64,000 bases of DNA from Actinocatenispora rupis (GTDB lineage Bacteria > Actinomycetota > Actinomycetes > Mycobacteriales > Micromonosporaceae), in NCBI RefSeq assembly GCF_016861975.1, contig NZ_BOMB01000013.1, forward strand, positions 46,963 to 110,962, in the 5' to 3' direction. Made by a program: the position numbers and the translations under genes. The notes under the pieces were generated by a model. The model had not been told where the DNA came from, did no database searches, and worked only from the letters and a program-made list of their open reading frames with translations. Shown here piece by piece: positions 21,046-55,660 of the stretch; position 1 is the stretch's first letter; each line of letters opens with the position of its first letter.

Positions 21046-21138
21046 ACGTGGCCGCCCGGCCTTGGGTTTCCTTGGTACTGCTCGCTCTTGTGGTGGTTCT
21101 TCCCCGGTGTCGGTTGCCCGTGCCGGGGCTTGGGGGTG

Positions 21139-21163
21139 CGAGAGAGGACGCTGTCCTCTCTCG
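21139..21163 (+). terminator. First hairpin after tsaE
   Basis: cgagagagga and tcctctctcg are perfectly complementary around cgctg, 94 nt after the tsaE stop. Confidence 0.6.
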
Positions 21164-21175
21164 CGCTCTCTCCTG

Positions 21176-21200
21176 CCAAAGGGGGCTTCGCCCCCTTTGG
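21176..21200 (+). terminator. Second hairpin after tsaE
   Basis: ccaaaggggg and ccccctttgg form a perfect 10-bp stem closed by a CUUCG-type loop, 12 nt after the first hairpin. A tandem hairpin terminator is the simplest reading. Confidence 0.75.
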
Positions 21201-21465
21201 AAACCCCCACAAGTAGGCAGATGCGTTCGCGTTCGCCTCTCGTCACCGGTCCAAGTCCTTGTGCGTCAACCGGAGTTGGCTTCTTTCACCGGGCTTGCTG
21301 TTCGCCCTGAAAAGTAGGCGGCCTCTTCGTTGCGCTGGTCGCCACCGTTTCTTGTGCTGCTCGTTGCTCCGCCCTCTCGCTACCCGGGTGTTGTTGGCGC
21401 CTTCGGCGCCCGCCGTACCGGGGAAGGTCTTGTATGGCTTGGTTTTTGAAGTAAAGGGTGGTGTG

Positions 21466-21589
21466 GGGGGAGGGGAGCGAGGCGAGTCCGATTCGTTCGC
21501 TCGCAAGTCGAGACCGGCCGCCGTGTGCGTCAGCACACAAGGTCGGGATCGGCGCCGCGAGGGGGCGAATCGGTTCGCCGCAGCGTCCC
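21466..21589 (-). repeat. Structured 3' repeat, copy A
   Basis: Read on the reverse strand, this aligns without gaps over 124 nt to copy B after groEL (42647-42770). It starts 3 nt after the stop codon of the reverse-strand hydrolase. It folds as an outer stem (ccgattcg/cgaatcgg), an inner stem (ctcgc/gcgag) and a conserved central hairpin gtgtgc-tgac-gcacac (21523-21538). Several stem positions differ from copy B by compensatory changes. Confidence 0.8.
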
Positions 21590-21592
21590 TGA

Positions 21593-22417
21593 CTATCGCG
21601 TCCAGTCCAGCAGGTGGGTGGTGAGGAGTGCGGGGTTGTCTTCTTGGGGGAGGTGGGCTGCTTGGGGGAGGAAGGTGAGGGTGGCGGTGGGGATGAGGCT
21701 GTGGAGGGTGTGGGCGCGGGCGACGGGGATCCAGGTGTCGTCGGTGCCCCAGCAGAGGAGTACGGGGATGTCGATGTCGGGGTAGTGGGGTTGGATCTCG
21801 TCGGTGTAGCGCTGGTCGGCCTGGGCGATCTGGTGGTAGAAGGCGGCCTGGCCGGTGGGGGTGAGCCAGGGGGCGGCGAGGGTGTCGAGGGTGGTGGGGT
21901 GCAGGCCGGGCGAGCTGGCCGTGGAGATGTACTCGCGGACGAGCGCGGCGTGCAGGTGCGGCGGGAGCTGCTCGAAGACGGCCGCGTTGGCGGCGACGAG
22001 CCGGAAGAACGGGGAGCCCCAGGGGGCGACGGCGACGGGGTCGACGAGGGCGAGCCGCCGGTACCGGGCGCCGTGCAGGAGGTGGGCGCGGAGGGCGACG
22101 GCGCCGCCGAAGTCGTGGGCGACGACGGCGGGGGTGTCGAGGCGCCAGTGGCGGAGCAGGTCGGTGAAGATGCGGCCCTGCGCGGCGAGGGACACGTCCT
22201 GGCCGTCGTACATGGCGGAGGTGCCGTAGCCGGGCATGTCCCAGACGTACACGCGGTGGCGGGTGGCGAGGGCGGCGGCGACGTTGCGCCAGACGTACGA
22301 GGAGAAGGGTGTGCCGTGGAGGAGGACGACGGGGTCGCCGTCGTCGGGGCCGAGGCTGTCCCAGCGGACCTCCCCGGACGTGCTGTCGAAGGTCTGCGTG
22401 AGGTTCCAGTCGTGCAC
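21593..22417 (-). CDS. Alpha/beta hydrolase, haloalkane dehalogenase-like
   Basis: 274 residues. PVVLLHGTPFSSYVWRNV carries the oxyanion HG; the nucleophile elbow is VVAHDFGGAVALR, with Asp in place of Ser as in haloalkane dehalogenases and epoxide hydrolases; the acid lies near CWGTDDTWIPV and the His in LPQAAHLPQEDNP. It should open an ester-like intermediate from a halide or epoxide, but the substrate is unknown. GTG 22417 is chosen at the start of homology; the frame upstream overlaps tsaB antisense. It sits on the opposite strand between tsaE and tsaB with a repeat directly behind it, so it is probably an insertion. Confidence 0.9.
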   Translation of the reverse strand: MHDWNLTQTFDSTSGEVRWDSLGPDDGDPVVLLHGTPFSSYVWRNVAAALATRHRVYVWDMPGYGTSAMYDGQDVSLAAQGRIFTDLLRHWRLDTPAVVAHDFGGAVALRAHLLHGARYRRLALVDPVAVAPWGSPFFRLVAANAAVFEQLPPHLHAALVREYISTASSPGLHPTTLDTLAAPWLTPTGQAAFYHQIAQADQRYTDEIQPHYPDIDIPVLLCWGTDDTWIPVARAHTLHSLIPTATLTFLPQAAHLPQEDNPALLTTHLLDWTR

Positions 22418-36000: not shown

Positions 36001-36172
36001 CCTCAGAGGTCCTGGCAGAAAGGCGTCGGATGGCTGGCGAGGCTCAGGGCGGGGCTGCCAAGGCGGAGGTGCAGTCGCATACCGGTGTTGTATGCGACTG
36101 TGCCGACAACGTCGGCAGCGTCGTCCTGAGTCCGCCAGGCGCCGACAGTCCTTTCTGTCAGGACCTCTAAGG
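36001..36172. mobile_element. MITE-like inverted-repeat element
   Basis: The outer arms 36001-36023 (cctcagaggtcctggcagaa...) and 36150-36172 match in 21 of 23 positions when inverted; weaker pairing extends about 15 nt further in. Inside are a perfect 11-bp hairpin (cagtcgcatac/gtatgcgactg, 36072-36100) and a 7-bp hairpin (tgccgac/gtcggca, 36101-36117). It carries no gene and fills the divergent promoter region between the GNAT and NHL genes. I see no clear target-site duplication, so a large regulatory hairpin remains possible. Confidence 0.55.
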
Positions 36173-40984: not shown

Positions 40985-42640
<1,656 letters not shown>

Positions 42641-42646
42641 GGGTAG

Positions 42647-42770
42647 GGGTCGCTGCGCCGGCCTGATTCGTCCGCCGGACTGCGCCGATCTCCGGCTTGT
42701 GTGCTGACGCACACGGCGCCGAATCTCGGCTTGCCGGCGAACGAATCAGGCTCGGCTCGCTCGCGTCCCC
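42647..42770 (+). repeat. Structured 3' repeat, copy B
   Basis: Aligns without gaps over 124 nt to copy A (reverse strand, 21466-21589). The outer stem gcctgattcg (42661-42670) pairs with cgaatcaggc (42742-42751); an inner ccgg/ccgg pairing and the conserved central hairpin gtgtgc-tgac-gcacac (42699-42714) complete the fold. It lies just after the groEL stop, in the same relative orientation as copy A behind its gene. Confidence 0.85.
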
Positions 42771-42793: not shown

Positions 42794-42826
42794 ACGGTGG
42801 GGCTGACCTTTGGTCAGCCCCACCGT
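42794..42826. terminator. Bidirectional terminator between groEL and whiB-family gene
   Basis: acggtggggctgacc (42794-42808) and ggtcagccccaccgt (42812-42826) form a perfect 15-bp stem with a ttt loop, between convergent genes and 15 nt after the reverse-strand stop. Confidence 0.85.
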
Positions 42827-42840
42827 CGTGTCCGGGGGGT

Positions 42841-43212
42841 CTACGCGGGGACGGATTCGGGGGTGTCGGCGCCGCGGAGGCGGGCGTCCAGGCGGTGGAG
42901 GTCGACGCGGCGGTGGCGGCGGTCCGCCAGGTCCTCCCAGCCGGTGTCGATCAGGCGCTGGCGTTCGGATTCGCTCAGCCCGCCCCACACGCCGTACGGC
43001 TCGTGCACCTTCAGGGCGTGCGCGGCGCACTGGGCCCGTACGGGGCAGCTGCCGCACACGGCCTTCGCGTCCCGCTCGCGCCGGGTACGGGACGGTCCGC
43101 GCTCGCCTTCCGGATGGAAGAAGACCGCGCTCGGCAACCCCCGGCAGTTGCCGGCGAGCTGCCAGTCCCACAGGTCGGCGTTGGTACCCGGTAGGCGACG
43201 GATGTCCGCCAT
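42841..43212 (-). CDS. whiD: WhiB-family iron-sulfur regulator, WhiD/WhiB3-like
   Basis: 123 residues with the four iron-sulfur Cys at positions 23, 53, 56 and 62 (AGNCRGL; VCGSCPVRAQC) and the turn motif YGVWGGLSESERQ, then a basic tail. Wbl proteins bind the primary sigma factor and act in sporulation (WhiD) or redox response (WhiB3). The WhiD/WhiB3 label rests on the short VFFHPEGERG segment and on synteny with groEL, bldM and sigD. ATG 43212 has AGGAGGG 4 nt upstream. Confidence 0.93.
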   Translation of the reverse strand: MADIRRLPGTNADLWDWQLAGNCRGLPSAVFFHPEGERGPSRTRRERDAKAVCGSCPVRAQCAAHALKVHEPYGVWGGLSESERQRLIDTGWEDLADRRHRRVDLHRLDARLRGADTPESVPA

Positions 43213-55427: not shown

Positions 55428-55660
55428 CCCGCAAAGCTAGCCCGGGTCTGCACAGGTTGCGGGGCCGGCTGCGCCGGGGCCTGTTCGCCGCGTTGTCGGC
55501 ACGAGCGCACCCACCTGCACCTCCGCCTCGCGCAACGAACGGAATGCGGCTCGCCCGACCGAACCCGTGCAGACACGGGCTGGCCCGTACGGGATGTCCG
55601 AACGGTGCGTGCGGGGTTCGCGGTGGGCGGCCGCACACGTTCCGCCGGAGGCTGCGGACC

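Follow-up and report, generated by a model that had tools for sequence, protein, structure and literature searches.

Introduction

REPs and small non-autonomous MITEs are the closest described counterparts of the element analyzed here. GTAG and CGTC REPs are characterized as palindromes of 20-40 bp, which are intergenic and lie near 3'-ends (Di Nocera 2013, PMC3733652). In the parts of that paper that deal with their location, GTAG REPs often provide flanking ORFs with their TAG stop codons, most convergent REPs of the two species shown are less than 20 bp away from both 3'-ends, and many GTAG/CGTC REPs are thought to be transcribed (PMC3733652). REPs of Actinomycetota have been predicted with RepRanger, e.g., in Arthrobacter livingstonensis, and the same source mentions that ribosomes were reported to stall at E. 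coli REPs that start no more than 15 nt past a stop codon (PMC12306157).

The window, i.e., the whole stretch of 64,000 nucleotides of Actinocatenispora rupis DNA that was analyzed, contains two copies of a structured repeat directly behind stop codons. The original prediction had suggested that they could be a new 3'-end RNA element or a REP/MITE-like family that targets terminators. This interpretation was partly supported by the present analysis. Support was obtained for the REP/MITE-like family, and the best explanation, with a probability of roughly 0.55, is that the copies are mobile, non-coding hairpins of about 125 nt, which reside mostly behind stop codons in the direction of the gene, and that the fold is predicted to be required for mobility and not for a service to the gene.

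Results

Copies of the element in the window

Two covariance models were used, R1, which was built from 22 copies, and R2, which covers the same core more widely. Copy B (42645..42770, plus strand) matched R1 with 131.4 bits and copy A (21467..21591, minus strand) with 126.9 bits, at the places where they had been predicted. Both are of type 1, i.e., without insertion-sequence-like ends. They align end to end, as had been claimed, but with one internal gap of 1 nt instead of without gaps, and the alignment shows that the two copies have the same apical hairpin and that the three paired changes described for them are present. The predicted fold of copy B has a free energy of -84.3 kcal/mol (z -6.7) and that of copy A of -61.9 kcal/mol (z -4.1), and in both cases 0 of 200 shuffled sequences were as stable.

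Each of the two copies indeed lies just past a stop codon and has the same direction as the gene. Copy B follows a few nt downstream of groEL (Cpn60_TCP1, 41003..42640, plus strand, stop codon 42638-42640), and copy A follows the TAG stop codon of an alpha/beta hydrolase gene, which ends at 21593 (21593..22417, minus strand). Downstream of copy B is a perfect 15-bp inverted repeat (42794..42826, plus strand), which is likely the native groEL terminator, and then a convergent whiB-like gene (42841..43212, minus strand); all three genes are based on an own gene call and a family match. The proposal that the element targets terminators did not hold at groEL, the sole site that was viewed closely: copy B is located between the stop codon and the terminator-like hairpin, which is intact. 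Insertion into terminators was therefore rejected.

A third copy, copy C (36001..36172, minus strand, 66.3 bits with R2), had been missed. It is of type 2, i.e., it has long terminal inverted repeats, and its core (36032-36140, minus strand) is more divergent than copies A and B. The arms (36001-36023 and 36150-36172) are terminal inverted repeats of 23 nt that are 91% complementary. Copy C is intergenic between divergent genes, away from any stop codon.

In addition, a weak R2 match of 20.8 bits was seen in the window at 55469-55554 (plus strand), and a copy with ends like those of copy C was found by eye downstream of locus L022. The window also harbors a second non-coding repeat family of about 400 nt (21050-21470), for which 18 matches were found in this genome and no match in the three sister species searched; four of its copies are situated after the hairpin element (L008, L010, L016, L021).

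Copy number and distribution

The hairpin family is far beyond chance, and it is larger than could be seen from the window. As anticipated, more copies were found in the genome and in its relatives. A DNA search of this genome (G000) yielded 42 matches at E values up to 10, 24 of which had E values of at most 7.7e-8, including one partial copy (L017). The R1 search yielded 49 matches at E values up to 1, part of which represent the opposite strand of the same copies, and 26 of the matches had at least 60 bits. R1 matches were present in 11 of 61 relatives, including all four Actinocatenispora genomes, i.e., this genome and those of three sister species (G001-G003). With R2 and this genome included, matches were found in 32 of 121 genomes of the family (17 of 44 genera, E up to 1e-4) and in 19 of 150 genomes of the order (13 of 56 genera, E up to 1e-5). 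The 2.4-Mb genome G046, which belongs to another genus, had 22 listed R2 matches.

For the analysis of the genus, the R1 matches taken were 10 of 10 from G001, 20 of 30 from G002 (roughly the strongest first, with some short ones skipped) and the strongest 16 of 22 from G003; L172 (G002) was added later as an ortholog. The R2 matches listed in these genomes (19 in G001, 30 in G002 and 23 in G003) include copies outside the analyzed set, and the loci from other genera were selected among the R2 matches listed. The partial copy L017 was left out throughout, L020 and L017 from alignment A2, L132 from alignment A4, and L092 from the tree.

Searches for known families had the following results. Rfam at the gathering score gave 0 matches in the 64-kb window, and at E values up to 1 it gave one weak match in seven loci, which was away from the hairpin element. 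Copy B did not match phage and plasmid sequences, and one exact core pattern had 0 matches in viral contigs; a phage or plasmid cargo was therefore dropped as an explanation. A strict pattern for a cousin of the core, which was badly chosen, had 0 matches in 396 genomes of the phylum. The titles and abstract openings of the literature searched, with few subscription journals covered, contained no description of the family. In G459, the loci L208, L254, L255 and L257 are near contig ends, and thus copies may break the assembly.

Structure and covariation

RNAalifold predicted a consensus of 40 pairs for the element of about 125 nt, 16 of them with compensatory changes. In alignment A2, 96.7% of the cells were paired and 84 cells had double changes, compared to 30.0 in shuffled alignments; when the structure was slid along the alignment, only 31-44% were paired. 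The covariation that had been foreseen for further copies was then found in copies from outside the structure derivation: with the structure derived from G000, an alignment of 23 G001-G003 copies, to which one G000 row was added as a guide, was 90.7% paired and had 82 double-change cells versus 30.3 (sd 3.7) after shuffling. When the alignment was widened to several genera (19 rows), 22 of 32 pairs had double changes, 93.6% of the cells were paired, and 97 double-change cells were seen versus 30.3 after shuffling, with a structure derived from the same 19 rows on which it was scored. Therefore, the stem covariation between copies is strong, also in copies outside the structure derivation.

Paired changes could also be made without any selection on the fold, if template switching during replication corrected imperfect palindromes. 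Slippage-type changes do occur: in L130, L128 and L097 the left arm is duplicated in tandem, which is what slippage during the replication of a long palindrome would produce, and paired changes were found between species at one and the same locus (L103 versus L127b). Yet such a correction would erase asymmetries, while the asymmetric core is conserved across families, with CGTT on the left, GCCTTG on the right and a GTGTGC-GCACAC tip in many rows. U-G pairs are part of this core as well; close to the tip, two of them are either retained or replaced by C-G in nearly all rows. Template switching was thus judged improbable as the source of the paired changes.

Placement of type-1 copies at stop codons

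The predicted bias to 3'-ends with a fixed orientation was supported. When the distance was measured from the element ends (range of -20 to 30 nt), a sense stop codon was present at 42 of the 50 type-1 copies of the genus, whereas an antisense stop codon was present at none of them. Because these 50 copies contain orthologous groups, p-values overstate their independence; the genes were called with an own codon-usage caller and not taken from the annotation. The placement was seen in each of the four genus genomes (23/27, 4/5, 5/5 and 10/13). When the conserved CGCTGCG was used as an anchor, the distance to a sense stop codon was between -5 and +30 nt for 38 of the 50 copies, a range that covers 6.7% of the oriented intergenic positions of the window. 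By eye, the 12 exceptions consisted of four copies that are preceded by another copy, which is truncated or repeated (L010, L014, L126, L130), four mis-set anchors (L054, L057, L127b, L134), one copy behind a short uncalled frame (L094), and three true exceptions (L004, L022, L128).

The 69 copies without insertion-sequence-like ends from other genera, which were chosen among the matches listed, fell into four groups: 34 had only a sense stop codon, 8 had stop codons of both orientations, 6 had only an antisense stop codon and 21 had neither; if the six G565-type copies among the 20 further loci described below are included as type-1-like, the numbers are 34, 8, 7 and 26 of 75. In G012, 3 of 14 inspected copies extend between the stop codons of two facing genes, from one to the other (L082, L232, L237; L083 is not in this list). 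The type-1 copies of the genus are thus locked in sense orientation at stop codons.

The stop codons themselves suggest another explanation, namely that the element is an ordinary MITE with TA, TAG or CTAG as target, which is rare in high-GC genes. The stop codon would be regenerated upon insertion, and survivors would pile up at stop codons. In agreement with this, the stop codon was TAG in 22 of the 38 anchored genes compared to 9 of 58 window genes (p 2e-5). Furthermore, by eye, many copies in G012 and G046 have GAGCG or AGAGCG behind an initial stop codon and the reverse complement thereof at their end. However, the near-palindromic ends predict insertion in both orientations, which is at odds with 42 sense and 0 antisense placements, and the other 16 of the 38 stop codons were TGA or TAA. 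In addition, the window has about 49 TAG sites at which an insertion would be tolerable, and 9 of these are stop codons. TAG targeting alone cannot yield the sense lock, and this explanation was considered rather unlikely also in view of the type-2 copies.

Copies with insertion-sequence-like ends

A second set of copies, type 2, has the same core and insertion-sequence-like ends (CTAGGGTCTGTTTCG-like), while a type-1 element is as a whole one long imperfect palindrome. Many type-2 copies are flanked by CTAG on both sides, and one of them (L182) resides exactly at a stop codon, both of which would fit a TAG or CTAG target. The two types were assigned by eye from the ends, and the genus set was fixed before orientation was counted.

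Of the 30 type-2 copies of the genus, 5 were at a sense stop codon only, and 10 at an antisense stop codon only. The respective numbers were 4 and 6 for 23 type-2 copies from other genera, which were chosen among the matches listed, and thus 9 and 16 for all 53 copies. The difference in orientation between the two types was large (p 2e-8), and the absence of an overall orientation bias in type 2 is a further point against insertion into TAG as the origin of the placement of type 1. This count left out L066 and L064, which are duplicates of L209 and L205, and 20 further loci, which were counted separately. Within -20 to 15 nt, the 20 loci had 0 sense, 1 antisense and 19 neither; within 15-40 nt, 7 were sense only, 1 was both, 0 were antisense only and 12 were neither. 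Together with all 20 loci, 16 of 73 copies were sense only and 16 antisense only. Copies of type 2 thus have no overall orientation bias, but the counts of the 20 further loci at 15-40 nt run against a complete lack.

One type-2 end pattern was searched in this genome and was found at 11 sites. Four of these are known type-2 copies. In the other seven loci, which were inspected, no transposase was present between paired ends (at most 2 mismatches), and the paired ends enclose at most one whole called gene, that of a HEPN_SAV_6107 protein in L273.

Orthologous gene ends

Of 18 gene ends that were prepared, 14 were compared with the genus, and 11 of these had usable orthologs. At five of the 11 (L007, L011, L018, L019, L020) no element was present in any of the three sister species, and the protein end was unchanged by eye. 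At another five (L001, L003, L005, L006, L013), one or more sister species carry a type-1 element, and at the L009 gene end a copy flanked by CTAG is located precisely at the stop codon of a sister species. The groEL gene exemplifies the variation: in G002 the stop codon is followed by a terminator-like hairpin without an element, and in G003 by an element and then a related hairpin. The absence of the element in the sister species probably reflects a gain in this genome, but a loss in these species is also possible. A target duplication could not be demonstrated for type 1, because the sister species are too diverged between genes for a clean empty site.

At shared sites, the G000 copy was often nearer to other copies of its own genome than to the ortholog (L003, 0.88 versus 0.54; L013, 0.87 versus 0.59; L001, 0.86 versus 0.65). 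In the tree, 20 of 26 G000 copies were in one branch of 24 rows, a branch without full support, in line with a lineage expansion. Some orthologous copies of like subtype from G001-G003 clustered, and some genes keep an element across species while its subtype differs. The presence of a type-1 element in a sister species at five of 11 sites, and the genes that keep an element of a different subtype, could mean that the host benefits.

RNA or DNA as the folded form

Such a benefit is the essence of an alternative in which the element is a 3'-end RNA that serves the host: the transcribed hairpin would end or protect the upstream mRNA and would be selected in sense orientation. The sense lock at stop codons, the stem covariation and the presence of a type-1 element also in another species at five of 11 sites are all in favor of it. 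In addition, another strong hairpin within 130 nt was found for 19 of 48 genes with the element compared to 34 of 53 genes without it (p 0.017), and fewer further hairpins behind genes with the element would fit a terminator role. On the other hand, the terminator-like hairpin is still present behind groEL, and truncated remnants of the element were seen by eye at orthologous gene ends. A T-rich 3'-end was rare, with 2 of 50 type-1 copies of the genus and, in a looser count for other genera, 11 of 49 copies, and the type-1 element does not have the GC hairpin with U-tract of an intrinsic terminator.

The original prediction had left open whether the fold is kept as RNA or as single-stranded DNA. 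A sense-RNA wobble signature was sought but not seen, because A-C mismatches were at least as common as G-U wobbles in the sense strand: at pairs with a Watson-Crick majority, the ratios of A-C to G-U cells were 12:8 in A2, 25:21 in A4 and 21:6 in A5 (A4 and A5 share rows). Two U-G pairs of the tip region, which are retained or become C-G almost throughout, stand out against this. The RNA part of the claim was thus not demonstrated, and single-stranded DNA fits at least equally well.

Also the changes between individual copies were compared. Six orthologous pairs of like subtype had 6 double changes that kept a pair and 23 single changes that broke it, i.e., resident copies mostly break pairs, whereas 33 and 39 changes, respectively, were counted in the 17 nearest paralog pairs (Fisher p 0.024). 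Three of the six pairs are from one locus, and one copy takes part in five of the six double changes. A further eight orthologous pairs were judged to be subtype replacements; they had 31 double-kept and 26 single-broken changes. With all 14 orthologous pairs (37:49) the contrast to the paralogs was gone (p 0.75), and resident copies then keep pairs as often as paralogs, as a host-serving RNA would. The comparison gives a hint that the structure may be more important for the generation of new copies than for their persistence at a site, a hint that is fragile because it depends on leaving out the eight pairs. Taken together, the host-maintained RNA is less favored and was ranked below the mobile element; it is a possible, though doubtful, explanation.

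Enzymes

The presence of enzymes that could move the element was analyzed by family searches. Y1 (RAYT-type) transposases (PF01797) had 0 matches in G000, and they were absent from 14 of the 18 element-bearing genomes tested and present in four. No R2 match was found near the Y1 loci L366-L370. A RAYT-driven REP was rejected because G000 does not encode a Y1_Tnp and only four of 18 carriers do. The RVT_1 reverse transcriptase was found in two of the four Actinocatenispora genomes and had 0 matches in G000, and retro-mobilization by such an enzyme was therefore also rejected. Integron attC sites are marked by GTTRRRY and RYYYAAC boxes. None of the 50 type-1 copies contained both boxes, and thus attC sites were rejected as well.

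Discussion

The results reveal an element with multiple copies, stem covariation, an asymmetric core that is conserved across several actinobacterial families, and a sense lock at stop codons. They also reveal a second set of copies with the same core, insertion-sequence-like ends, many CTAG flanks and no overall orientation bias. In the favored explanation of a mobile hairpin, an enzyme acting in trans would recognize the folded single strand and would place new copies in the short gap behind a stop codon. The sense lock would reflect access to the single strand during transcription. The mRNA is predicted to carry a strong hairpin that starts mostly 0-15 nt past the stop codon, and the expression of the upstream gene may be modestly changed, by analogy to the ribosome stalling described for REPs in part of PMC12306157.

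A more specific version is that this is a new, transcription-coupled targeting rule, by which a folded single-stranded element enters the exposed non-template strand past the stop codon and which operates without a RAYT or a reverse transcriptase. Insertion into the non-template strand where it is exposed as ribosomes leave the mRNA would lead to copies behind stop codons in sense orientation. This rule is speculative, and it was given a low probability.

The family offers a natural contrast, in which one core is either equipped with insertion-sequence-like ends and has no overall orientation preference, or is locked to stop codons in sense orientation. This makes it testable what sets REP-like repeats at gene ends, i.e., targeting, selection or coupling to transcription. 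The family can thus be used to examine how mobile DNA locates gene ends, in carriers of which most of those sampled (14 of 18) do not have the usual Y1 enzyme.

The element has features in common with several known systems. Like the small actinobacterial MIRU repeats of mycobacteria, as presented in part of PMC12548453, it is found precisely at a gene boundary and little disturbs the gene; unlike MIRU, which are associated with start codons and a coupled ORF in that source, it is non-coding and follows stop codons. Like the MITEs ERIC, RUP and NEMIS (Delihas 2007, PMC2229807, in its sections on these elements), it is small, non-autonomous, palindromic and intergenic, and the type-2 variant is MITE-like also in its long terminal inverted repeats with often CTAG flanks. 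Type 1 differs from these MITEs, as portrayed in the same sections, in that it does not have insertion-sequence-like ends or a demonstrated target duplication, and a stop-codon lock is not described for them in these sections of PMC2229807.

The similarity to GTAG REPs is that the element is palindromic, intergenic and located behind genes (42 of 50 type-1 copies), and that it supplies TAG stop codons, as these REPs do according to the cited parts of PMC3733652, the main text of which contains neither actinobacteri- nor Micromonospora as words. With regard to the unpaired GTAG or CGTC tag at one end of these REPs, the left end of type-1 copies often holds a TAG stop codon, and the base in front of TAG varies. 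In contrast to the REPs of 20-40 bp and BIMEs in such descriptions, it has a length of about 125 nt and an asymmetric conserved core, and it is sense-locked. Unlike REPs that are served by RAYTs, it resides in carriers without Y1/RAYT in 14 of 18 cases, G000 included. Thus, the hairpin family falls outside the definition of REPs on size and enzyme, its variant with insertion-sequence-like ends is MITE-like, and the family is filed as a REP/MITE variant.
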